64,000 nt of DNA, from the NCBI RefSeq assembly GCF_007097485.1, contig NZ_VKDE01000004.1, positions 248,001 through 312,000 of the forward strand, in the 5' to 3' direction. The notes beneath the pieces were generated by a model, which was not told the DNA's origin, did no database searches, and saw only the letters and a program-made list of their open reading frames with translations. Position numbers and translations under genes: made by a program. Source of the DNA: Carboxylicivirga sp. M1479 (GTDB taxonomy: Bacteria > Bacteroidota > Bacteroidia > Bacteroidales > Marinilabiliaceae). Shown here in pieces: positions 29,081 to 50,913 of the stretch. Numbering within the stretch: position 1 is the first letter of the stretch; every line of letters starts with the position of its first letter.

Positions 29081-29111
29081 AAGAGGGTGTCTGCTAGTTG
29101 GACGCCCTCTT
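29081..29111 (+). other. Hairpin between PL8 and sulfatase genes, weak terminator or attenuator
   Basis: Arms AAGAGGGTGTC (29081-29091) and GACGCCCTCTT (29101-29111), 11 pairs with one wobble, 9 nt loop. No T-run follows, so termination is likely partial, with read-through into the sulfatase gene. Confidence 0.55.
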
Positions 29112-29145
29112 ACCAAAGTTTGAAACTATCACAAGAATATATAAT

Positions 29146-30696
29146 ATGAAGAAAATACTATTACAAGCAATTGGAATGATTCTTCTTTTGGCAACGTTAG
29201 TGAGTTGTCTTAAGGGAGAAAAAAAACTGAATGCTAAGCCAAACATTATTTTCATCTATTTGGATGATTTGGGCTATGGCGATATTGGTGCCTATGGTGC
29301 CACCGAGTTAAATACACCAGCAATGGATGAATTAGCGAATGGTGGTGTCCGTTTTACAAATGGATATGCAACTTCGGCAACTTGCACACCAAGTCGTTAT
29401 GCCTTGTTGACAGGTGTTTATCCATGGCGCAATAAAGATGCTGCAATTTTACCAGGTACAGCTCCTTTGATTATTGGAACTGAGCAAATGACAGTGCCAA
29501 AAATGCTTAAGGAGCAAGGGTATGAAACGGCTGTTGTTGGCAAATGGCACTTAGGACTTGGAGCAGGAATTGTTAACTGGAACGAACGCGTATCACCAGG
29601 ACCTAATGAGGTGGGATTTGATTATGCTTATATTATGGCAGCCACTCAGGATAGAGTACCAACTGTATACATTGATAATGGCTATGTTGATGGATTGGAT
29701 AAAAATGATCCAATTGAGATTAGCTATCAAAATAATTTTGAAGGAGAACCAACAGGCAAAGAAAATCCGGAATTGTTAACGATGAATTGGCATCATGGGC
29801 ATAACAATAGCATTGTTAATGGCATTCCGCGCATTGGGTTTATGAAAGGTGGCGAATCTGCTAAGTGGAGTGATGTGGATATGGCCGATCATTTCTTGTC
29901 AAAAGCTAAGAGCTATGTAAAAAGGAGTGCTAACCGGAAAAAACCATTTTTCTTGTATTATGCACTTCAGCAACCACATGTGCCTCGCACTCCGCATCCG
30001 CGTTTTGAAGGTGCATCGGGTATGGGACCACGAGGAGATGTAATCGTAGAGGCCGATTGGTGTATCGGTGAGTTTTTTGAAACCCTTGAGAAAGAGGGTT
30101 TAATGGAGAATACACTTATCATTCTATCGAGTGATAATGGTCCTGTATTAAATGACGGTTATTATGATGATGCTGTTGATAAACTAGGTAAACATATGCC
30201 AGCAGGAAAACTTCGCGGTGGTAAGTATAGTTTGTTCGAAGCAGGAACACGTGTGCCTTTTATTACTTATTGGAAAGGAATAATTGAACCTGGAATATCA
30301 GATGCTTTGGTGTGTCAGATGGATTTATTCGCATCTTTAGCGGCATTAACAGGTAGTGATAAGAAAGTACAAGATAGTGAAAATGTAATGCCTGCATTAT
30401 TAGGTCATTCACCAATAGGACGTGAAGAACTGGTTATTGAAGCTACTTCGCGAACAGCTTTTAGAAAGGGGGATTGGGCATTGATTCCTCCTTACAAAGG
30501 TCCTGAAAGTAATACGCTGGTAAATATTGAATTAGGTAATCATTCCGATTATCAGTTGTATAATTTGAAGCATGATATTGGTCAAACGAATAATCTAGCA
30601 GAAAGTAATCCAGATAAGTTAAATGAAATGAAAGCTGCATTTGAAATCATTAGAGGCGGAGACTATACTAAGATTAAGCAATTAGAGTTGAAGTAA
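29146..30696 (+). CDS. Sulfatase, formylglycine type S1, lipoprotein
   Basis: A 516 aa sulfatase resembling GalNAc-6-sulfatase/arylsulfatase A-type enzymes. The start at 29146 gives the lipoprotein signal MKKILLQAIGMILLLATLVSC (Cys21); an upstream TTG in frame would place 16 polar residues in front. Metal site YLDDLGYGD (D40, D41), modification motif C80-T-P-S-R84 followed by YALLTG, VVGKWHLG near 150, second metal site SSDNGP near 340. No second operator motif is seen upstream; it sits 143 bp after the T9SS-sorted PL8 and may be read with it through the hairpin at 29081. The motif pattern hints at 6-O-sulfated GalNAc, but this is a guess from general similarity. Confidence 0.9.
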   Translation: MKKILLQAIGMILLLATLVSCLKGEKKLNAKPNIIFIYLDDLGYGDIGAYGATELNTPAMDELANGGVRFTNGYATSATCTPSRYALLTGVYPWRNKDAAILPGTAPLIIGTEQMTVPKMLKEQGYETAVVGKWHLGLGAGIVNWNERVSPGPNEVGFDYAYIMAATQDRVPTVYIDNGYVDGLDKNDPIEISYQNNFEGEPTGKENPELLTMNWHHGHNNSIVNGIPRIGFMKGGESAKWSDVDMADHFLSKAKSYVKRSANRKKPFFLYYALQQPHVPRTPHPRFEGASGMGPRGDVIVEADWCIGEFFETLEKEGLMENTLIILSSDNGPVLNDGYYDDAVDKLGKHMPAGKLRGGKYSLFEAGTRVPFITYWKGIIEPGISDALVCQMDLFASLAALTGSDKKVQDSENVMPALLGHSPIGREELVIEATSRTAFRKGDWALIPPYKGPESNTLVNIELGNHSDYQLYNLKHDIGQTNNLAESNPDKLNEMKAAFEIIRGGDYTKIKQLELK

Positions 30697-41279: not shown

Positions 41280-43652
41280 ATGAACTTTATGTCTCGCTTC
41301 TTTTTTATAATACTAATTTGTTTTGTGAGTCTGTCGCATGTAAAAGCGCAGAATGTAAAAGGGCAAGTTGTTGATGCTGAAACATTACTTCCGATTGCTT
41401 TTGTGAACGTGGTTTATAGCGAAGGAGCTGGTACCGTAACTGATATTGATGGCAAGTTTGAAATACGTACAAATGTTGCCATTCAAGAGTTGCGCTTTAG
41501 TTGCTTAGGCTACGAGTCGCAAGCGCTTGCTATAGATAATTTTGTTGGTGGTAAAGTTCTGTTACATCCATTAAAATATAGATTGCCAACTGTAAATGTA
41601 CTGCCCAGTGAAAACCCAGCCGTAGCCATTATGAAAAGGGTAGTGGATCAAAAAGTTAAACACGATCCAAGTCATTACAATCCATTTAGTTGTATTATTT
41701 ATCATAAAATGACATTAGATTTTGATTGGCCCGCCGATTTAAATGCCGAAGAAAGAAGAGAATTAAAGGATTCCTTAGGATTAAAAGATGATAGTTATTT
41801 ATTTCTATTTGAGTCGGTTTCAGAAAAAAAGCATTTGAAAAAAGGAGTTGAAAAGGAAAAAGTAATTTCTGGAAGAGTTAGTGGCTTGAAAGATCCGATG
41901 TTGGCTTCATTTCCAGCCATGTTGCAGCCATTCTCATTTTACGATCAGTATATTAAATTACTGGGATATGCCTATTTGAATCCTGCATCAAAACCAGGTT
42001 TATCGGCGTATCAATTTATTTTAGAAGATACCTATGTTAATTTAGAAGGTGACTCTGTTTATTATATTTCTTACCGCCCAGGTAAAGGTAAAAACTTTAG
42101 AGGGCTTACTGGCGCTTTTCATATTCACGGTAGTTCATTGGCTATTCAAACTGTTTCGGCTACTACAACGGGTACTGAAAATGGCATGCGTTTATTTATT
42201 AAGCAAAAATATCAACCATTGCAGAATGGCCTTTGGTTTCCAAAACAGTTAGAAAGTAGCTTAGAGTTTGGGAGGATTGGTGTAGCTCGCCAGTTTCCAT
42301 TGCCCATGATAGGCAAAGGGAAGAGTTATGTAACTGCGATAAACACCCAAGCGCAGTTCAATCCTAAAGATTTTGATAATGTTGTTATGGAAGATGTGGC
42401 TATTTCCAAATCGTCGCCTGATGTTGGCGTGTATAGGTATGAGCCATTGACGGCTAAGGATTCTTTAACCTATCAATTGTTGGATAGTATAGGGCGTAAA
42501 AATCATTTAGATGCCTTGATAAAAACACAAGTATCATTAATTAAGGGTTATGTGCCTATTGGTGTGCTACAATTTGATTTATCTAAATTGATAGACTATA
42601 ACGACTACGAAGGATTAAAGTTAGGGGCTGGGCTTTATACTGGAAATCAGCTTTCGAATAAATTTACAGCTGGTGGTTATTATACCTATGGTTTTGGTGA
42701 CAAAGCCAGCAAGTACGGCTTTAACTTATCTGTTACACCTTTCGACGAAAAGTACAATCGTTTTTATATCAATTATAAAGATGATGTATTTGCAACTGGA
42801 TCTTTCGAATTTCTTGACGGCGTTAAAGAAATGTCAAGCGAGCGTTTTAGTCGATTTCTAACCGAAACAATGGATTTGAGTGCGGGTGTAACAACTGGTG
42901 TTAATTTTAAATTCTTGAAATACTTCAAAGCAGGTCTTTATTTTAAAAAGCACTCTATTGAGCCTTTAAAACCATATTTATTTGAGGGGAGCGATGTGCT
43001 TGCGCCAATGTTTGATTTGCAAGAAACAGGTGTAAAACTAAAATGGGCTCATAAAGAAACGTTTAATCATACACCATTGGGAATGATTTCCAATGGAACG
43101 AATTGGCCGACAGTATGGGTTAATGCAGCAGTTGGACAGCAAGAGTTTGAGGAGATGTTTCGCTACAGTAGTTTTGAAACTCGCTTGCATAAGCGCTTTA
43201 ATTATTCTAATTCGATGTATACAACATTGAGGGTAGAGGGTGGTATTTTAAGTGGAAAGTATAGCAATACAATGTTATATAGTGCACTAGGGAGTTATAA
43301 ATCTTTCACTATTTTGGTGCCCTATACCTTTGGAACCATGCGCTTGAATGAGTTTGGTTTGGAGCGATTTGGAGCTTTGTATTTATCACATGGTATTCCT
43401 TTGTCTTTAAATACGGATAAGCGTATAAAGCCAGAAATAGTATTAGGAACCAATGTGGTTTATGGAGAGGCTCCCGATGGTATTTCAGGGCTTGAAAATG
43501 GTTATTATGAGTCGGGTTTATACCTTAAGAATCTGTTTTCTAATTTTATTTTCCAATATGGCTTGTCAGTGCACTATCGATATGGAGCTTATCAGTTGCC
43601 TGATGCAATGGATAATTGGGCATTTAAGTTGGGTTTGGAGTTTGCATTTTAA
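41280..43652 (+). CDS. DUF5686 outer-membrane protein with carboxypeptidase-like N-domain
   Basis: A 790 aa protein with a signal peptide (about 1-24, ending HVKAQ; the Met at 41289 is an alternative start). The N-terminal carboxypeptidase-regulatory-like beta domain is NVKGQVVDAETLLPIAFVNV (about 25-100). A long DUF5686 part follows: a middle globular segment and a C-terminal beta-barrel (about 430-790) ending in the aromatic terminus WAFKLGLEFAF, typical of outer-membrane barrels. No plug or TonB box is seen. The function is unknown; Bacteroidota have several copies of this family. Its TAA overlaps the stop of the opposite-strand gene in a shared TTAA. Confidence 0.82.
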   Translation: MNFMSRFFFIILICFVSLSHVKAQNVKGQVVDAETLLPIAFVNVVYSEGAGTVTDIDGKFEIRTNVAIQELRFSCLGYESQALAIDNFVGGKVLLHPLKYRLPTVNVLPSENPAVAIMKRVVDQKVKHDPSHYNPFSCIIYHKMTLDFDWPADLNAEERRELKDSLGLKDDSYLFLFESVSEKKHLKKGVEKEKVISGRVSGLKDPMLASFPAMLQPFSFYDQYIKLLGYAYLNPASKPGLSAYQFILEDTYVNLEGDSVYYISYRPGKGKNFRGLTGAFHIHGSSLAIQTVSATTTGTENGMRLFIKQKYQPLQNGLWFPKQLESSLEFGRIGVARQFPLPMIGKGKSYVTAINTQAQFNPKDFDNVVMEDVAISKSSPDVGVYRYEPLTAKDSLTYQLLDSIGRKNHLDALIKTQVSLIKGYVPIGVLQFDLSKLIDYNDYEGLKLGAGLYTGNQLSNKFTAGGYYTYGFGDKASKYGFNLSVTPFDEKYNRFYINYKDDVFATGSFEFLDGVKEMSSERFSRFLTETMDLSAGVTTGVNFKFLKYFKAGLYFKKHSIEPLKPYLFEGSDVLAPMFDLQETGVKLKWAHKETFNHTPLGMISNGTNWPTVWVNAAVGQQEFEEMFRYSSFETRLHKRFNYSNSMYTTLRVEGGILSGKYSNTMLYSALGSYKSFTILVPYTFGTMRLNEFGLERFGALYLSHGIPLSLNTDKRIKPEIVLGTNVVYGEAPDGISGLENGYYESGLYLKNLFSNFIFQYGLSVHYRYGAYQLPDAMDNWAFKLGLEFAF

Positions 43653-44407
43653 AACATATATGAAGTACAGATAAGTATGATCCATAAAATTGGTAAACCT
43701 TCAATATAAAAGTTGATGTATGCTTGGGTTTTGTTTTTCTTAACTTTTTCGAGTGCTATCAATCCAACAAGCGCAAATATGGTGGATGCGATGACAGTAT
43801 TAGGCTTGATGGTAGTGTATGCTATAACTGATAGAAGTAGACATAACTGTGCAAGCCTAATTGATTGTATTGAGCCAATCAATTGTGGTATTGTTCTTAA
43901 ATCTAATCCATCTGATTCTAAATCCCTTATATCAAAAGGCAAGGTAATGGCAAAAACAAATAGCCAGATTATAAGTGGTGTAATTGGGTAATCAAGCGGA
44001 GTCTCAATTAACGACAAACATAATAGTGACCATGAAGTACAAATGATGAATATTTTAATCGAGGGGATCCATCTTAGGCCAAATTCTTTTTTTATTGGGA
44101 GAATATAGAACAGCGAAAGTAGAGCAAGGATTATAAACTTTAGATTAAGGTAAAGTTGGCTATGTATAATAAAAGTAATAGTTGCAAAGCTTATTAGGCC
44201 AGTAACTATGAGCATTATTACTTTGTTTTTTCTCATCCATAAGTAGCGTTCGTATTGTAAATTACTCGATGATATAAAGTATACTGACCAATAAATATAA
44301 TTATACCCAATAAAGCCAATTCCAAAACACACTAAGAAATTATTGAAACTGGTATCATTAGTGGTAAAAGATATAAGCTTGTAATTACATGCCAAAGCCA
44401 AGGCCAC
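43649..44407 (-). CDS. UbiA-like prenyltransferase family membrane protein with uncertain 5' end
   Basis: An integral membrane protein with seven to eight hydrophobic helices. The FDIRDLESDGLDLRTIPQLIG loop resembles the second Asp-rich motif (DxxD) of UbiA-type prenyltransferases; the first motif (NDxxD) is not evident, as in the divergent UbiA-like proteins of Bacteroidota. The only possible start is GTG at 44407. Reading upstream, the frame continues with plausible family sequence (LTYSSTWVALALA) for 18 more codons to a TAA that is also the stop codon of the upstream regulator gene, with no ATG. So the gene is either started at GTG with a shortened first helix or has lost its start. It is divergent in function from UbiA proper; the substrate is unknown. 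Confidence 0.6.
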   Translation of the reverse strand: MALALACNYKLISFTTNDTSFNNFLVCFGIGFIGYNYIYWSVYFISSSNLQYERYLWMRKNKVIMLIVTGLISFATITFIIHSQLYLNLKFIILALLSLFYILPIKKEFGLRWIPSIKIFIICTSWSLLCLSLIETPLDYPITPLIIWLFVFAITLPFDIRDLESDGLDLRTIPQLIGSIQSIRLAQLCLLLSVIAYTTIKPNTVIASTIFALVGLIALEKVKKNKTQAYINFYIEGLPILWIILICTSYMF

Positions 44408-44458: not shown

Positions 44459-45157
44459 TTAACCTACCCGACATATGTCATGTAAGGTTTTTGATGAGTT
44501 TATTTCAATGTGGTTTCCGTTAATTGCAATGATGTTACTTTCCTTAAAATCTTTTAATACACGGATTAGGCTTTCCTTTGAAACGCTTGATAAATCAGCT
44601 ATATCTTGACGGCTTAATGTGGTGTGGAAATTTTTGGAGTTGTATATCTTTTCAGACAAATAAATGATGGTACTAGCAATTCTACCAGTCATTTTTTTAT
44701 GTGAAAAATTTATTAATTGATTATACAAATCTTGTGTAATATGATGATTAAGCTGAAGGATTTGTTCTGCAAAACGATTGTTGTTGCGAAAGGCTGAAGT
44801 AAAGGCCTCAATACTAATCAAGCAGGTGTCAACCTCCGTTATGGCGCTAACTGAGAAATGATTAAGATCGTCTGTGAATAGCCCTGGACTAACAATGAAA
44901 TCACCTTCCTTTAGTATTTTTATAATTATTTTTTTGTTTTCTAGCCCATTGATGTAAAGTTTTGCAAAACCTTTTTTAATGCAAATGATACTAGTGCATC
45001 TAGTACCTTCCTTAATAATAGTCTCGCCCTTTTGGTAAATGACCTTGCAATGTGACTTCTTAAATGAAGTTAATTCATCTTCACTTAAGGTGTCAAAGCC
45101 ATTGAATTTTACATGGCATAAACTGCAATCGTTTGAAATATCTCTTGTTATACTCAT
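44459..45157 (-). CDS. Crp/Fnr-family transcription regulator
   Basis: A 232 aa regulator: N-terminal cyclic-nucleotide-binding-like domain (about 20-140, QKGETIIKEGTRCTSIICIKKG, then LKEGDFIVSPGLF) and a C-terminal winged helix (about 160-225, LSRQDIADLSSVSKESLIRVLKDFKE). Cysteines at 11, 14 and 37 (DCSLCHVKF, SHCK) near the start could bind an Fe-S cluster, as in FNR, but the fourth ligand is unclear. The Met at 45157 is chosen; an earlier one adds 19 hydrophobic residues without homology. It diverges from the cytochrome cluster and an FNR-like box lies between, so it probably controls that cluster in response to oxygen or redox state. Confidence 0.85.
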   Translation of the reverse strand: MSITRDISNDCSLCHVKFNGFDTLSEDELTSFKKSHCKVIYQKGETIIKEGTRCTSIICIKKGFAKLYINGLENKKIIIKILKEGDFIVSPGLFTDDLNHFSVSAITEVDTCLISIEAFTSAFRNNNRFAEQILQLNHHITQDLYNQLINFSHKKMTGRIASTIIYLSEKIYNSKNFHTTLSRQDIADLSSVSKESLIRVLKDFKESNIIAINGNHIEINSSKTLHDICRVG

Positions 45158-45504
45158 TTGGTTTTTTGAGATGCGTGTAAAATTAAAAATAGTAAGAATA
45201 AGTGATATAACCAAAGCTTCTAACGTCGCCGGGTATATGTTAGTTTTGTGTGGAGTTGGTTTAATGTTCAGGCATACAGTGTGTCAGCATAAAGCTTAGT
45301 TGGATTGAATTTAAATAAGGAATTACTTCTTTAAATATTATTAATTCATAAGTTCCACATAGTGAGGAGTATAAGTGTTTTGTATTGATATTTGTCAATT
45401 TTTGTGAGTATAACTTACATCGTGTTAGTTCACTTGTAAATGTTTAAAATTGTATTGATAATTAAAATGAAGAATTAGCAGTAATGTTTTTAAGTCCATA
45501 CGTT
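45158..45504. promoter_or_regulatory. 347 bp divergent control region of regulator and cytochrome cluster
   Basis: AT-rich, without a gene. The one clear element is an FNR-like dyad at 45385-45398; GATATTTG, one base off the -7 consensus, overlaps it. The remainder shows nothing distinct. Confidence 0.5.
45385..45398. promoter_or_regulatory. FNR-like operator box
   Basis: TTGATATTTGTCAA: half sites TTGAT and GTCAA with 4 bp between, one base off the TTGAT-N4-ATCAA consensus of Crp/Fnr proteins sensing oxygen. It lies 107 bp before the first cytochrome gene and 228 bp before the regulator gene, in the right place for either. Confidence 0.5.
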
Positions 45505-46623
45505 ATGAAAAAAATTAATCAAGTTCTTTTACTTATAGTTGTAGCTGTTGCTACGGTGTTATCTAGCTGTACAAAAGAAGGTCCTCAAGGCCCTCCTGGA
45601 GCTGATGGTACCAACGGTTTAGATGGTACTAATGGTATTGATGGAACATCAGGTTGTATTACTTGTCATACAAATGATACTGATCTGGCAATGAAGACTA
45701 CACAATTTAAGAAGTCTTTACACTATACAGGAGGAGCTGAACACGTAGGATACGCCAATTATGCCGGTGGATCATGTTCAATGTGTCACTCACACAATGG
45801 ATTTATGCAAGCTGTTGAAGACGGTACTAACTCTGGAGGTTTACATCCTGAGGCTGCAGCCATGTCTTGTTATACATGTCACGAAATTCACACAAGTTAC
45901 ACTCGAGAAGATTATGGAATGCACTATACAGATGCAGTGAACTTTTATTTGAATGAAAATGATAATGGTGTATTTACCGGTTTAGAAGTAGATGCCACTA
46001 GTCAGTATAGTGATCCTGAAGGAATGAGTAATACATGTATCAAATGTCACCAACCACGACATAGAGGTACGACACAGCCTGATCCATCATTGGATGGAAC
46101 TATTGTTATATCAGATGGAGCCGCTGCTCACTGGGGGCCTCATTATGGTGCACAAGGTGCTATTTTCGGAGGCGTTGGTGGTTATATAGGTACAACAGAT
46201 CCAACTGCGCCGTCAGGAACGAAAGGGCACCATAGTTGTAAGAGTTGTCATATGTCTTTTAATTCATTAACTGGAAACTATGGATCTTATGTAGGTGGCC
46301 ACTCAATGAATATGTCAGGTAGCGATGGAGAGCCTGTATTTACTGCTTGTGACGAGTGTCATACTGATAGAGGTGCCACAATAGATTTACCTGGTAAAAT
46401 GGCTTCGAATAAGATCTTAATTGATGCATTACATGCTGATTTATTAGGATTGCAAATTATTGATGCTGATGGACACTTATTAGGTGGTACTTGGACTCAC
46501 AAACAATTGTCAGCATACTGGAATTATGCCTTAGTTAAAAATGATCATAGTTATGGTATTCATAACGAGCAGTATACTCAAGATTTAATTAATGCTGCAA
46601 GAACGTATTTAGGAACAAACTAA
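45505..46623 (+). CDS. Hexaheme c-type cytochrome lipoprotein with collagen-like stalk
   Basis: A 372 aa protein: lipobox LSSC (Cys22), then eight Gly-X-Y triplets (GPQGPPGADGTNG, continuing to SGCITCH), then a domain with six CxxCH heme c motifs: CITCH, CSMCH, CYTCH, CIKCH, CKSCH and CDECH. Many further His residues could be distal ligands. No CxxCK or other catalytic motif of nitrite or hydroxylamine reductases was found. Lipid anchor plus stalk suggests an exposed electron-transfer protein at the outer membrane. The start at 45505 is preferred to an in-frame ATG at 45484. It is the first gene of the cluster and is followed by a terminator-like hairpin, so it may be made in excess. No known family was recognised for the whole protein. 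Confidence 0.85.
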   Translation: MKKINQVLLLIVVAVATVLSSCTKEGPQGPPGADGTNGLDGTNGIDGTSGCITCHTNDTDLAMKTTQFKKSLHYTGGAEHVGYANYAGGSCSMCHSHNGFMQAVEDGTNSGGLHPEAAAMSCYTCHEIHTSYTREDYGMHYTDAVNFYLNENDNGVFTGLEVDATSQYSDPEGMSNTCIKCHQPRHRGTTQPDPSLDGTIVISDGAAAHWGPHYGAQGAIFGGVGGYIGTTDPTAPSGTKGHHSCKSCHMSFNSLTGNYGSYVGGHSMNMSGSDGEPVFTACDECHTDRGATIDLPGKMASNKILIDALHADLLGLQIIDADGHLLGGTWTHKQLSAYWNYALVKNDHSYGIHNEQYTQDLINAARTYLGTN

Positions 46624-46635
46624 AAAAAGTCTAAT

Positions 46636-46665
46636 GGGTGGCTTGTTTTATAGTCACCCTTTTTT
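46636..46665 (+). terminator. Short intrinsic terminator after the hexaheme gene
   Basis: Arms GGGTGGCT (46636-46643) and AGTCACCC (46652-46659), 8 pairs with one wobble, 8 nt loop, then six T. Probably partial, since the next genes lack another visible promoter. Confidence 0.7.
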
Positions 46666-46688
46666 GTTCAACTAACTAATTAAGTCAT

Positions 46689-47063
46689 ATGAAAGCATTA
46701 CAAACAGTAATCGTTAGTTTATTGCTCGTTTTGGCAATAGGTTGCGATTATAAGTATATAACGCCCGATACAGGCGCTCCAGTAGATCCTGATGATCCAA
46801 TTAGTTTCTCTGCTGAAGTAGAACCAATATGGACAAGTCAAAGTTGTGTAAACTGCCATAGCGGAAATGGTCTATTTAGCTTAAAACAAGGTGAAGCTTA
46901 TCAATCATTAATAGACAATAGTTTATTGGATTTGGAAAATTCTGCAAATAGTAAGATTGTTACAGTTCCGGGATCCAGTGGATTGCATAGTGGTTATACG
47001 TATTCTGGTAATCAAGAGCTTATAATTACTACTTGGATTGATCAAGGGGCAGAGGATAACTAA
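46689..47063 (+). CDS. Monoheme cytochrome c-like lipoprotein
   Basis: A small lipoprotein (124 aa) with lipobox AIGC (Cys19) and one heme site CVNCH near residue 56, in the context FSAEVEPIWTSQSCVNCH. The rest (about 60-124, ending ITTWIDQGAEDN) has the short helix pattern of planctomycete-type or class I cytochromes. This N-terminal pattern is widespread in Bacteroidota as small electron carriers. The gene lies 65 bp after the hexaheme gene and 11 bp before the DUF5777 barrel. It would shuttle electrons at the inner face of the outer membrane or at the surface; the sidedness is unknown. Confidence 0.8.
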   Translation: MKALQTVIVSLLLVLAIGCDYKYITPDTGAPVDPDDPISFSAEVEPIWTSQSCVNCHSGNGLFSLKQGEAYQSLIDNSLLDLENSANSKIVTVPGSSGLHSGYTYSGNQELIITTWIDQGAEDN

Positions 47064-47074
47064 AAACGATTAAC

Positions 47075-47953
47075 ATGAAAAAAATAATATATCTGATTGT
47101 TTTGGTTCTGTTTTCTGGTCAATTAATTTGGGCTCAGGAAGAAGCACCAGTAGAAAAGAAAGTTGATAAGCCGGTTCGCTCACCATGGGAATCTGGTACA
47201 CTGGTTAATCACCAAACAAGTGTAACGCAATATAAAAATACATTAGAAATGGTGATTAGTCACCGTTTTGGACCGGTTGAAAATGGTATTAGTGATGTTT
47301 TTGGAATTATGGCTCCAGGAGCTAATATTCGAATCGGATTTAACTATACTATTCTTGATGATTTGAGTGTTGGTTTTGGTACTAATAGTCAAAAAAAATA
47401 TCAGGATTTTCAGGCTAAGTATACGCCTTTTCAACAAACAAGAGAAAATACAATACCTGTTAGCTTAACTATTTATGGTAATGCAGCTATTGATGCACGT
47501 GCTGAGGAAACTTTTGGCGTTAATTATGAATTTACTGATCGTCTATCGTACTTCTCAGAAGTAATAGTTGGTCGTAAGGTAAATGATTGGCTGTCGGTAC
47601 AGGCAAGTGCTAACTTTACACATTATAACGCTGTCGATACTTTGTTGGATAATGATAAGATGGGACTTGGTTTTGGCGGACGTGTCAAGTTCAGTCCACA
47701 ATCATCACTAACTTTGGAAGTTGGTGTGCCACTTAAAATTGAGAGTTTGTCTCAGTACTCGTCTTTTACAGATCACCCAAAGCCACATTTTTCTATTGGT
47801 TATGAAGTTTCGACAAGTACACACGCATTTCAAATTTTTGTAACAAATGGTTTAGGAATATTGCCTCAAGAGTTATATATGTTTAACTTGAGCGAGTTCG
47901 ATGCGAAGAGTATACGCTTCGGATTTAATATAACTCGATTGTGGAATTTCTAA
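47075..47953 (+). CDS. DUF5777 outer-membrane beta-barrel protein
   Basis: A 292 aa protein with a signal peptide (about 1-20, ending LIWAQ) and a sequence of alternating amphipathic strands typical of an outer-membrane barrel, ending in the C-terminal aromatic signature FGFNITRLWNF. The NTLEMVISHRFG and GANIRIGFNYTILDDLSVGFG segments fit the DUF5777 family, which is often encoded beside c-type cytochromes in Bacteroidota. A barrel between lipid-anchored and periplasmic hemes suggests a porin-cytochrome conduit. That role is inference; no heme site is in the barrel itself, and 12-16 strands are expected from its length. Confidence 0.78.
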   Translation: MKKIIYLIVLVLFSGQLIWAQEEAPVEKKVDKPVRSPWESGTLVNHQTSVTQYKNTLEMVISHRFGPVENGISDVFGIMAPGANIRIGFNYTILDDLSVGFGTNSQKKYQDFQAKYTPFQQTRENTIPVSLTIYGNAAIDARAEETFGVNYEFTDRLSYFSEVIVGRKVNDWLSVQASANFTHYNAVDTLLDNDKMGLGFGGRVKFSPQSSLTLEVGVPLKIESLSQYSSFTDHPKPHFSIGYEVSTSTHAFQIFVTNGLGILPQELYMFNLSEFDAKSIRFGFNITRLWNF

Positions 47954-47976
47954 TTGATTAAAGTAAATCTGGTATT

Positions 47977-48390
47977 ATGAGAAAGTTAAAAATGACAGTT
48001 TTTATGAGTTGCGCAATGCTAATGCTTAGTATTGTTTTAATGTCGTTTACGCAAGAAAAGAAGCCGTGGGATATACCTGCTAAGTATAAGGCGATGACTA
48101 ATCCTCAATCGGCTGATGATGCAGACATGATTAAAATTGGTAAGATGAATTACTCTCGCCACTGTAAATCATGCCATGGTAACATTGGTCAGGGTAATGG
48201 TCCAAAGGCGCGCAGTATTGATGCTGATTTAGGCGATTTTACAACAGCTGAATTCCAAGCTCAAAAAGATGGTGTGATTTATTATCAGTCTTTTATTGGA
48301 CGTGATGAGATGCCGAACTTTGAAAAGAAAATTCCTGATGATGAAGATCGTTGGGCAATAGTGACGTATATGCGTACTCTTAAGAAGTAA
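47977..48390 (+). CDS. Small c-type cytochrome, class I-like
   Basis: A 137 aa protein with an N-terminal hydrophobic segment (about 6-26) that is a signal peptide or anchor. One heme site CKSCHGNIGQGNGPKARS near residue 65, and a Met-bearing YQSFIGRDEMPNF segment near 110 that gives the likely sixth ligand. The C-terminal helix DRWAIVTYMRTLKK is typical of class I/CBB3-type cytochrome c. This is a soluble or tethered periplasmic one-electron carrier, 23 bp after the barrel gene and before a hairpin that precedes the heptaheme gene. Confidence 0.88.
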   Translation: MRKLKMTVFMSCAMLMLSIVLMSFTQEKKPWDIPAKYKAMTNPQSADDADMIKIGKMNYSRHCKSCHGNIGQGNGPKARSIDADLGDFTTAEFQAQKDGVIYYQSFIGRDEMPNFEKKIPDDEDRWAIVTYMRTLKK

Positions 48391-48406
48391 AGAAATAACC
48401 ATTATT

Positions 48407-48457
48407 AAAAAACTGCCCGTGAAAAAGAATTGATTCTTTTCTGCCGGCAGTTTTTTT
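48407..48457 (+). terminator. Terminator after the small cytochrome gene, with nested inner stem
   Basis: Outer arms AAAACTGCC (48409-48417) and GGCAGTTTT (48446-48454) enclose a second pairing GAAAAAGAAT / ATTCTTTTC (48421-48441). A run of seven T follows. Strong, so the downstream heptaheme-cytochrome b part may depend on read-through or another promoter. Confidence 0.75.
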
Positions 48458-48480
48458 GTTCTATTTTCAAACATATTACA

Positions 48481-49428
48481 ATGGTAAATAAATACAAATT
48501 AGTAATTCTATGTCTTTTTGCCTGCTTGTTTTTAGGTGGTTCTCAAAGTATAGCTCAAGATGTTGCCGATAATGGCAAATGCCTGAAGTGTCATGGTCAG
48601 GTGTTTTACGAGTATGATAATGAATGGACCGGTCAAGTAGATCGTAAACCACTAAATCCATTTCATCATATTGACAGTGTGAAGATGCATCAGTCTGTTC
48701 ATAAGATGTTTGCATGTATCGATTGTCATTCGATGGATTATGAAACGTTTCCGCACGATGGAGAGTTAAGGTTAGAAGCTAAATACACGTGTATGGATTG
48801 CCATGGAGGAGACGATACCTATGCTAAATATAATTTTGAGGGTATTGAAGAAGCTTTTATGGAAAGTGTGCATTTTCAAGCCTCAGAAGAGCGCTTTAAC
48901 TGTTGGAGCTGTCATGATGCACATGGTTATGAATTAGCATTGCGAAATGATAAAAGCATTGTTGAGGTTGTTGAATTAAGCAATAATATGTGCTTAAGCT
49001 GCCACGATAATAAGTTTAAATATGGCTTAATTTCCGATGATCAACCAAAGCAGATCAACGAAATACACGCTTGGTTACCTAATCAGGATAGTCACTTTAA
49101 AAAGGTTCGTTGTGTTGACTGCCACACAAACGTTCAGAAGGATGTGTTGGTATCACACAACATCTTGCCAAAAGAAAAAGCTTTAAAAAATTGTGTGCAA
49201 TGCCATAGTGCTAATTCTGTTTTAATGGAGTCATTGTATGCGTATCGTGCTAAAGAAAGTAGGGAGTCTTCAGGATTTTTAAATGCCGTTATACTTAATG
49301 AGGGCTATATGATTGGAGCCAATCGTAATCAAACCCTCAATAATATTAGTATTGGAATATTCTCATTAATGATTTTGGGTTTATTGGTTCATTTGATTTT
49401 ACGTTTTATCCTGATAAAAAAGAAATAA
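48481..49428 (+). CDS. Heptaheme c-type cytochrome with C-terminal membrane anchor
   Basis: A 315 aa protein: signal peptide (about 1-25, ending SIAQ), seven heme motifs in order CLKCH, CIDCH, CMDCH, CWSCH, CLSCH, CVDCH and CVQCH, and a C-terminal helix (about 287-310, ISIGIFSLMILGLLVHLILRF) followed by positive residues. The heme domain is thus periplasmic and tied to the inner membrane by its tail. The last CVQCH lies close to the helix. It is followed after 1 bp by the cytochrome b gene, which suggests the pair forms a quinol-oxidising module passing electrons to periplasmic carriers, much as NrfH- or NapC-like units do by another fold. The earlier in-frame start at 48430 was not chosen. 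Confidence 0.88.
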   Translation: MVNKYKLVILCLFACLFLGGSQSIAQDVADNGKCLKCHGQVFYEYDNEWTGQVDRKPLNPFHHIDSVKMHQSVHKMFACIDCHSMDYETFPHDGELRLEAKYTCMDCHGGDDTYAKYNFEGIEEAFMESVHFQASEERFNCWSCHDAHGYELALRNDKSIVEVVELSNNMCLSCHDNKFKYGLISDDQPKQINEIHAWLPNQDSHFKKVRCVDCHTNVQKDVLVSHNILPKEKALKNCVQCHSANSVLMESLYAYRAKESRESSGFLNAVILNEGYMIGANRNQTLNNISIGIFSLMILGLLVHLILRFILIKKK

Positions 49429-49429
49429 G

Positions 49430-50047
49430 ATGAGTGATAAATTATATTTATATCCAGTATGGATTCGTATTTGGCATATTTTTAATGCCGTTTTCTTTCT
49501 TGTGTTATTATTGTCAGGTATAAGTATGCAATACGCAAGTCCTGATTTTATGTTAATGCCTTTTGATGTTGCAGTAACAAGTCATAATGTGGCTGGAATT
49601 GGCATATCCATTGCTTATTTTATTTATTTGATTGGATTTGTATTTACTAGCAATAAAAAGCATTACAAGATCGAATGCAAAGGCTTAATAGGTCAATTGA
49701 TAACACAAATGAGGTATTACCTATTTGGTGTTTTTAAAGGCGAAGAATCGCCATATCCCTCTACTGAAGAGAGTAAGTTTAATCCACTTCAGAAAGTTAC
49801 TTATGTTGGCGTACTGTTCGTGCTGTTTCCTGTATTGATATTTACTGGTTTGCCTTTGATGTTTCCAGAAGTAATCATCGATGATTTTTTCGGAATAGGA
49901 GGTACCTTATTAACTGCGCTCGTGCATGCCAGTGCCGGATTTTTTGCTAGTCTATTTTTGGTAATCCACCTGTATTTTGCAACGATGGGTGCCAGTTTTA
50001 GCTCTAATTTTAAAAGTATTATTAACGGATATCACGAATCTCATTAA
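49430..50047 (+). CDS. Four-helix diheme cytochrome b (FdnI/PhsC/HupC-like)
   Basis: Integral membrane protein (205 aa) with four helices and His in the places of quinone-reactive cytochromes b: H16 in WIRIWHIFNAVFFL, H52 in TSHNVAGIG, and H166 and H180 in ALVHASAGFFASLFLVIHLY, the last two 14 residues apart. It resembles the gamma subunits of formate dehydrogenase and thiosulfate reductase. With its partner, the heptaheme protein one base upstream, it would oxidise menaquinol and feed electrons to the periplasm. No molybdenum enzyme, hydrogenase or other catalytic subunit is encoded in the cluster. Confidence 0.88.
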   Translation: MSDKLYLYPVWIRIWHIFNAVFFLVLLLSGISMQYASPDFMLMPFDVAVTSHNVAGIGISIAYFIYLIGFVFTSNKKHYKIECKGLIGQLITQMRYYLFGVFKGEESPYPSTEESKFNPLQKVTYVGVLFVLFPVLIFTGLPLMFPEVIIDDFFGIGGTLLTALVHASAGFFASLFLVIHLYFATMGASFSSNFKSIINGYHESH

Positions 50048-50049
50048 AT

Positions 50050-50913
50050 ATGGAAGAAATATCGATTAAAAGAGAGTACTTAAAAGGTACTCTCATTCTG
50101 GTGGCGATTGTGTTGCTAGGTTTGTTTTTAAACTCTACGATTGGCCTGTTTGGATTTGTGAAAATGTTATGGCCTCAAAACTTAATCGTGATTTCTATTG
50201 CCTTGGTCCTTGGTTTATGTATTGGTTTTATTGCTAATTCTCAACGATTATGGTTTTTTAAAAGTGTTGCTTTCATATTGCCAACGCTAATGTTTTTAAT
50301 GGTCATTGGTGCATGGTTAATGCTTCATCCCGATGCTGTTGGTAAGGAGTGGCTTAGTCCATTGCTTCAGGTGCCTGCTTTTTTAGCTGCTGTATATGTT
50401 TTTTTGAGTAGTGGTATTTATGTGGCATTAAATGTTTCATCCTTCAAAAATAGGTGGTCGAGTATTGTTTTATCGCTTGTGTCTCTTGTTTTTATTTTTG
50501 GAACTGTTGTGGGAAAAAACGACTACTATCAATTAGCGATGAGAATTGGTTCTGAACGTGCTATTTTTGAAGCTAATGAGGTCGACGGAGACGAATATTA
50601 CCAACTGCCATTTGCTGTTAAGTTGATTACTAGTATTGTGGATGAGTCTATTGAATCGCAGATTAGTAAAGCGAGTGTGAGGGTTTTTAATACCGTTGAA
50701 GACTTTGAGGATGTGGAATTAAGTCTGGATAATAATTTTAAGATAAAAGGTTGGGTTATTGCGTTATCCCAGACTCAATACTACGGAAGTGTTGCAGATG
50801 ATCTTGTGGATATTGATCTGGTTTTCGATCGTTGGATTGAGTTAAAGTACTTTAGTCTGGGCTTTTTATTAATTGGTTTAATATTGCGTCGACGCAGTAT
50901 TAAAGTTGAGTGA
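50050..50913 (+). CDS. ResB/Ccs1-like membrane protein
   Basis: A 287 aa protein with about four N-terminal helices (residues 13-155), one soluble segment (about 160-262) and a C-terminal helix (about 265-282). The soluble segment ends NNFKIKGWVIALSQTQYYG, then DIDLVFDRWIELKYFSLGFLLIGL: a Gly-Trp-x-Ile core followed by an Asp-x-Trp before the last helix, as in ResB/Ccs1 cytochrome c assembly proteins. It is shorter than usual ResB and has no CcsA partner beside it. It may help with heme delivery for the 15 c-type hemes of the cluster, or may be a structural subunit. It is 2 bp from the cytochrome b gene, and the operon ends after it. Confidence 0.6.
   Translation: MEEISIKREYLKGTLILVAIVLLGLFLNSTIGLFGFVKMLWPQNLIVISIALVLGLCIGFIANSQRLWFFKSVAFILPTLMFLMVIGAWLMLHPDAVGKEWLSPLLQVPAFLAAVYVFLSSGIYVALNVSSFKNRWSSIVLSLVSLVFIFGTVVGKNDYYQLAMRIGSERAIFEANEVDGDEYYQLPFAVKLITSIVDESIESQISKASVRVFNTVEDFEDVELSLDNNFKIKGWVIALSQTQYYGSVADDLVDIDLVFDRWIELKYFSLGFLLIGLILRRRSIKVE

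Follow-up and report, generated by a model that had tools for sequence, protein, structure and literature searches.

The window analysed here is a 64,000-nucleotide stretch of the genome of Carboxylicivirga sp. M1479 (contig NZ_VKDE01000004.1), which at 44459..50913 carries a cluster of genes for c-type cytochromes, a cytochrome b and an outer-membrane beta barrel of the family DUF5777. We read the open reading frames (ORFs) of this region as one divergent gene for a Crp/Fnr-type regulator and seven forward-strand genes. The regulator (44459..45157, minus strand; PF00027 E 4e-14, PF13545 E 4.1e-11) is followed on the plus strand by a hexaheme lipoprotein (45505..46623), a monoheme lipoprotein with the heme motif CVNCH (46689..47063), the DUF5777 barrel (47075..47953), a small monoheme cytochrome c of the His/Met type (47977..48390), a heptaheme cytochrome (48481..49428), a b-type cytochrome of the b561/FdnI/PhsC kind (49430..50047) and a ResB-like membrane protein (50050..50913). 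Motif counts for the four heme proteins are 6, 1, 1 and 7 CxxCH, 15 in total. These counts, the barrel, the cytochrome b and the divergent regulator are as described in the original prediction, made from the window's letters; it listed seven heme, barrel or cytochrome b genes, of which we find six, the seventh gene being ResB-like. Likely starts are ATG 45157 for the regulator (residue 20, 91% conserved; the ORF reaches 45214 with a TTG start), ATG 45505 for the hexaheme (residue 8, 100% conserved) and ATG 48481 for the heptaheme.

Conservation and distribution of the cluster

In the sequence sets compared (52 hexahemes, 47 heptahemes, 45 cytochromes c and 56 monohemes), every Cys and His of the heme motifs is invariant. 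These sets include the window's own sequences and some members with CX4CH at one motif (L050, L118); a hexaheme with a stop in frame and five motifs (L122) was left out of the 52. The original prediction had proposed searching for the gene order in other Bacteroidota, and the order (regulator divergent from hexaheme, monoheme, DUF5777, cytochrome c, heptaheme and cytochrome b) is indeed found across many families, sometimes with genes lost or relocated (a hexaheme gene placed elsewhere, for example). Given this invariance and the recurring order, the cluster is beyond chance.

Across the order we searched 295 genomes (here and below, the organism's own genome is part of every tally) and identified the heptaheme in 65, DUF5777 in 120 and the hexaheme in 73. 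The heptaheme marker occurs in 45 of the 184 genera sampled. DUF5777 is present in 64 of the 65 heptaheme genomes (Fisher 6e-30) and the hexaheme in 56 (Fisher 3e-35), both tests ignoring kinship. Co-occurrence was scored on 66 of 67 heptaheme records (one G484 fragment was dropped), at least 48 of which have DUF5777 within 8 kb. A separate search found hexaheme matches in 21 of 60 genomes, and a contig search gave six loci, including a weak match at L031 (31%). Of the 14 genus genomes, only G002 lacks DUF5777.

We also examined 49 heptaheme loci, a non-random set chosen for having a match, with eleven from the same genus and some running to contig ends. Within 9 kb of the heptaheme are cytochrome b (45), DUF5777 (44), the monoheme (44), the hexaheme (39), the regulator (37), cytochrome c (36), ResB (15) and CcsA (8).

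The hexaheme lipoprotein and its relatives

The hexaheme begins with a lipobox (LSSC, its Cys invariant in all 52 sequences) followed by TKEG, a Gly-X-Y stretch, six CxxCH motifs and C-terminal helices of the NrfA/OcwA type. Nine glycines keep the Gly-X-Y register, with eight full triplets, and a register of at least five glycines is found in 49/52 hexahemes. A collagen stalk had been proposed from the sequence; the repeat is there, and the Pfam Collagen model (PF01391) scores it at 19.3 bits, below the 27.2 cut-off. No hexaheme relative was found in viral contigs.

A profile of 14 hexaheme relatives, searched against PDB sequences, matched 6qvm (E 1.5e-14), OcwA (6i5b, E 1.6e-13) and NrfA (1oah, E 8.1e-13), and more weakly ONR (E 4.6e-6) and HAO (E 2.8e-4). 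The 6qvm entry, a multiheme protein of 681 residues, is probably OmhA from Carboxydothermus ferrireducens, although PMC7829351 does not contain its code. The heme-free tail C-terminal to the last heme motif (profile from 14 of the 52 hexahemes) also finds OcwA first, at E 1.3e-6, with no NrfA listed and an unrelated protein next at E 0.01. The heptaheme profile is equally CxxCH-rich and gets no lower than E 5.3e-7 in PDB sequences. CxxCH composition alone is therefore insufficient to explain the hexaheme matches, and by its profile the hexaheme belongs to the NrfA/ONR/HAO/OcwA multiheme superfamily.

OcwA of Thermincola (6I5B) is described as a nonaheme terminal reductase of the cell surface with an NrfA-like three-helix bundle (PMC6703420). 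The hexaheme resembles it in superfamily (by sequence profile), in the C-terminal helix region, in a nearby C-x-x-C-H-M heme and possibly in an open heme. Five non-motif His (80, 136, 220, 273 and 360) are 98-100% conserved across the 52 sequences, so one of the six hemes may lack a distal His. Unlike OcwA, the protein has six hemes rather than nine, a lipid anchor with a Gly-X-Y tether, and a Gram-negative host with an outer membrane. The original prediction reported no terminal reductase in the cluster. That view gives way to another, since the superfamily makes the hexaheme a natural candidate, and the "missing" enzyme is probably the hexaheme itself. That it acts as the terminal reductase we judge to be reasonably probable.

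The hexaheme is not NrfA proper: it has an extra heme, no CxxCK catalytic motif is present, and all six motifs end in His in 52/52 sequences. When the hexaheme is aligned locally to the NrfA of the same genome (E 3e-12, three proteins searched), its hemes 3-6 fall on NrfA hemes 2-5, and heme 2 would take the catalytic position; a global alignment pairs hemes 1, 2, 3, 5 and 6 with NrfA 1-5, and heme 4 is unmatched. An equation of heme 2 with the NrfA catalytic heme is permitted by the local alignment and was not kept, as heme 1 takes that place in the global alignment. A role as the cell's main nitrite reductase was also set aside, because NrfHA is found elsewhere in the genome. Reading of sequences further identified an octaheme tetrathionate-type reductase and alternative complex III. 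The octaheme gene (L104:4417-6635) lies beside its own b561-like cytochrome, and by eye there are rhodanese-like and Crp-like genes near.

Alternatively, in line with the main alternative of the original prediction, the hexaheme could be an NrfA-like reductase on the periplasmic side of the outer membrane that acts on a soluble nitrogen, sulfur or other oxyanion, with DUF5777 as the substrate pore. Its match to the NrfA family, the size of the barrel, which suits a solute pore, and a surface export signal that fits only partly are all consistent with this, and OcwA itself is described as reducing nitrite, slowly (PMC6703420). However, the genome already holds NrfA with NrfH and the octaheme reductase with its cytochrome b, the six motifs all end in CH, the heme-free tail places OcwA first, and ImcH-like and 19- to 26-heme proteins adjoin the cluster in some relatives. 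Such proteins are of a type known from extracellular transfer systems. We consider this reading somewhat unlikely.

The inner-membrane pair, the barrel and their control

The heptaheme has a signal and a C-terminal membrane helix. Besides its motifs, seven further periplasmic His, which are candidate distal ligands, and one His in the membrane helix are invariant (n = 47); seven candidates for seven hemes suggest a wire. Its best NCBIfam match is NrfH at 32.3 bits, far under the 134.2 cut-off. The adjoining cytochrome b (PF01292 E 7.9e-21) has four His conserved 98-100% (n = 47) and is likely the quinol oxidase partner of the heptaheme. It scores 167.6 bits against NF011582 (PhsC), under the cut-off of 204, and no molybdopterin domain was found among the nine proteins scanned; a thiosulfate reductase PhsC was rejected on these grounds. 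A molybdenum-enzyme partner was likewise set aside, with no molybdenum reductase among the ten flanking proteins scanned, two of which are ResB-CcsA fusions.

Quinol oxidases of Geobacter described in PMC6295460 include CbcL, a multiheme with a HydC/FdnI-like cytochrome b, and ImcH. Going by that description, the heptaheme and cytochrome b appear to follow the CbcL plan and look like a split CbcL, differing in being two adjacent unfused genes with seven c-hemes rather than nine. An ImcH-like neighbor, likened to the Geobacter protein by description, occurs within 9 kb in 12/49 heptaheme loci and has three N-terminal transmembrane segments (by hydropathy), a NapC/NirT domain and seven CX2-4CH motifs. 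No ImcH-like match was obtained in the organism's own genome, in a search without a positive control. A 4Fe4S protein with NrfD lies beside the heptaheme in 9/49 loci, and a 19-heme b-type fusion in 4/49. Input modules appear to be swapped or added around the same outer part, a pattern that fits a shared wire.

The 19-heme fusion to a b-type cytochrome is encoded next to the cluster at L043:14366-17167 and L116:9507-12302, the latter with a DmsE-like decaheme part that scores under the cut-off. A protein of ~300 residues to which no family was assigned (L115:6931-7827 and relatives) accompanies the 4Fe4S/NrfD pair in 9/9 loci. At L129:1540-7446 a 1968-residue protein that has 26 CX2-4CH motifs and a beta-helix at one end lies beside a hexaheme-DUF5777-monoheme set.

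The small cytochrome c (PF13442 E 5.3e-10) has an invariant Met112 (100%, n = 45). This Met suggests a high-potential carrier and could favor an inward wire, in which the hexaheme would oxidize an outside donor (Fe(II), a partner cell or an electrode) and electrons would pass through the His/Met cytochrome to an oxidase, a nitrite reductase or the quinone pool. The alternative complex III and NrfHA could serve in such a route, and members of the CbcL/MtrH/MtoC group are thought to be bidirectional, according to PMC6295460. Anaerobic reduction is, however, better suited by the FNR-type control and the quinol-oxidase-like neighbors, and the genus is described as having a sediment life, using polysaccharides and containing MK-7 (PMC12325347). 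Inward flow seems very unlikely.

The ResB-like assignment of the last gene comes via a relative, L106, which a profile of genus proteins finds at 3e-32 and which itself matches PF05140 (E 1.8e-13) and lies beside CcsA. Neither the window's protein nor its nearer relative L037 has a Pfam match. The window's version is short and has no CcsA beside it; by way of L106, it may take part in cytochrome c assembly.

The DUF5777 protein matches PF19089 at 240.9 bits (cut-off 23.1; E 1.5e-71; conservation n = 53) and is single copy in the genome. Its ~270 residues form ~12 strands by eye, with weak strand calls in the model. The family profile gave no match to PDB sequences at E 10. The calculated barrel radius is ~11 Å for 12 strands versus ~25 Å for 26, the number that we take to be that of MtrB. 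A barrel of this size seems too small for a folded cytochrome, so we read DUF5777 as a docking site or pore that serves the monoheme lipoprotein rather than as a sheath. The original prediction named DUF5777 as the barrel of the conduit; a role as a porin sheath around a cytochrome is not supported.

The contexts of DUF5777 elsewhere in the phylum also largely separate it from the hexaheme and heptaheme. We compared 37 contexts, taken from 40 phylum regions picked non-randomly from a match list after setting aside a ten-base filler and two regions without a DUF5777 call. A small CX2-4CH protein lies within 3.5 kb in 23 contexts and a YceI-like gene in 23; one or both are nearby in 33/37 and neither in 4. 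The hexaheme occurs in one context (L086) and the heptaheme in none, and DUF5777 is thus not specific to this cluster. Two-motif proteins adjoin DUF5777 in L063, L074, L075 and L085.

The monoheme lipoprotein, a frequent partner of DUF5777, has no Pfam match; its lipobox Cys and heme Cys/His are invariant (n = 56). It lies near DUF5777 in 44/44 DUF5777-bearing loci of the 49, suggesting a heme contact. In some lineages the heme motif is CX4CH (L076:5660-6040, L077:5847-6248). The barrel could instead involve no protein wire at all, passing a small shuttle such as a flavin or quinone that is reduced by periplasmic or outer-membrane cytochromes. The small barrel, by hand count, and the 36/37 phylum contexts without hexaheme or heptaheme point that way, whereas the constant presence of the monoheme points away from it. 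We think a shuttle unlikely.

A second DUF5777 arrangement (L086:3019-10992) comprises the monoheme, DUF5777, a 4Fe4S protein, NrfD, an unidentified gene and a cytochrome c. L076, L077, L080 and L089 resemble it in size and start. The L086 and L077 arrangement adds an ethylbenzene-dehydrogenase-type lipoprotein, and L086 also has a hexaheme.

For the regulator, Cys30, Cys33 and Cys131 are conserved 95-98% (n = 44), the fourth Cys position varies, and the recognition helix holds Glu and Arg. Between the regulator and the operon, at 45385..45398, is the FNR-type box TTGATATTTGTCAA, one mismatch from TTGATNNNNATCAA. The latter occurs exactly in 13/34 intergenic regions and with one mismatch in 14 more (27/34 within one); single-base shuffles of the 34 regions expect 0.06 exact and 1.96 one-mismatch boxes. 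A pattern-free count of 5-4-5 palindromes ranks TTGAT first, in 13/34 regions. The consensus and the diagnostic cysteines are those we take to be characteristic of FNR, and both box and hairpin counts take in close relatives. With conserved cysteines and a box at the target both found, the regulator is, on sequence grounds, of the FNR type.

Two junctions carry terminator-like hairpins. The first, with a T-run, lies between the hexaheme and monoheme genes (46636..46659, plus strand) and is found in 19/31 loci, against 0-2 in 15 dinucleotide shuffles. The second separates the cytochrome c gene from the heptaheme gene (48407..48456, plus strand), in 20/26 loci against 0-1 in 15 shuffles. Junctions with a gap of less than 35 bases, two of the first kind and one of the second, are not counted. 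A laxer scan gave no hairpin on either side of the DUF5777 gene, where the gaps to the monoheme and cytochrome c genes mostly leave too little room for one. The cluster may not be one uniform transcript, and a single uniform operon was set aside because of these hairpins. They suggest graded expression, with the supply of hexaheme highest and that of the inner-membrane pair lowest.

Near the regulator, a membrane protein with seven predicted helices (43649-44407, minus strand), UbiA-like by eye and without a Pfam match, is found beside the Crp gene in 10/12 genus loci. Farther off, the start of the gene at 29098-30696 (plus strand) resembles a sulfatase lipoprotein by eye, which is ordinary for the group.

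A candidate route for electrons to the outer membrane

The cluster would work much like MtrCAB or PCC conduits, with a probable inner-membrane quinol oxidase, periplasmic heme, a barrel gene and a multiheme lipoprotein. It differs in having no decaheme, a much smaller DUF5777 barrel, and a terminal protein that is nearest the NrfA/OcwA side in PDB sequences. The MtrB/PioB porin model (PF11854) has 0 matches in the genome, in line with the original prediction that the build is distinct from Mtr. An anode cluster named "Bacteroidetes_1" in PMC8258643 has seven genes, six for multiheme cytochromes and one for a beta barrel, with best hits in Bacteroidetes/Ignavibacteriae; the account gives no gene names. 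By that description it has six multihemes compared with two here. A survey of heme-rich clusters required at least 15 hemes per cluster, and its main text does not mention Bacteroidota by name (PMC11475568); with 15 hemes the present cluster just meets this threshold and may figure in the supplementary lists. In the open-licence literature, we found no paper on DUF5777 or on a collagen-like multiheme cytochrome lipoprotein, and no description of this cluster.

We conclude that the cluster is genuine and conserved and very probably encodes an Fnr-linked electron chain that reaches the outer membrane, where it ends in a hexaheme of the OcwA/NrfA type. This bears out, in outline, the quinol-linked chain under an Fnr-type regulator that had been predicted. 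In the order of electron flow that we infer, menaquinol would feed an anaerobic respiratory chain under FNR control that ends at the outer membrane. Quinol would be oxidized by the b-type cytochrome, which would hand the electrons to the inner-membrane heptaheme, the two polypeptides acting as a CbcL-like pair. From the heptaheme, electrons would move to the small His/Met cytochrome c, then to the monoheme lipoprotein, which would be docked at the DUF5777 barrel, and on to the hexaheme. The hexaheme, on its Gly-X-Y tether and most likely exposed at the surface, would reduce an extracellular oxidant, such as a metal oxide, a humic quinone or a soluble acceptor.

Several observations weigh against this proposal. 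The DUF5777 barrel, at ~11 Å for 12 strands counted by hand, seems too narrow for a folded cytochrome. The surface export signal of lipoproteins is given as C-X-K-(D/E)2-X (PMC5080379), which the C-T-K-E-G of the hexaheme fits only in part; by hand count, K-E stands at +3/+4 after the Cys in 38/52 hexahemes and is absent from the other 14. The global and local alignments to NrfA disagree on the position of the catalytic heme. AlphaFold2 models on six-row alignments are too poor to use for either the hexaheme (predicted local distance difference test score, pLDDT, 43.8, with only ~residue 301 onward fairly confident at block means of 54-88) or DUF5777 (pLDDT 38.6). The parts also separate: 9/65 heptaheme genomes gave no hexaheme match, 17/73 hexaheme genomes gave no heptaheme match, some of those 73 are weaker matches in longer frames of ~450-660 residues, and cytochrome c was not found in 13/49 heptaheme loci. 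DUF5777 occurs in 153 of 395 genomes sampled across the phylum, whereas nine match the heptaheme at E<=1e-20. A single family accounts for seven of the nine, mostly C-terminal matches in longer frames of ~480-510 residues, and two of the seven loci, when read, have 13 motifs each.

Overall, we assign a probability of about 0.55 to an FNR-controlled menaquinol-to-surface chain that ends on a hexaheme reductase. A respiratory chain from the inner to the outer membrane, whatever its acceptor, is highly probable. Judged from the sequences, electron export to the outside is likely; the chances that the acceptor is extracellular appear even. It is doubtful, though conceivable, that this represents a widespread, undescribed Bacteroidota export system in which a small DUF5777 barrel and its one-heme lipoprotein, instead of a large porin around a cytochrome, take electrons across the outer membrane to a trimerized, Gly-X-Y-tethered hexaheme reductase of the NrfA/OcwA line. 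If that small-barrel export does operate, a nitrite-reductase fold serves as a surface reductase in both Gram-negative and Gram-positive cells.

About a fifth of the order's sampled genomes carry the heptaheme marker, and the group includes bacteria described as sediment polysaccharide degraders (PMC12325347). DUF5777 becomes a testable electron-transfer partner, and the hairpins of the operon may govern how much of each component is made. If electrons are exported as proposed, a large anoxic guild would have an outside respiratory outlet that searches for Mtr/Pcc porins would miss, and these marine Bacteroidota might respire on something extracellular by a route not yet described.

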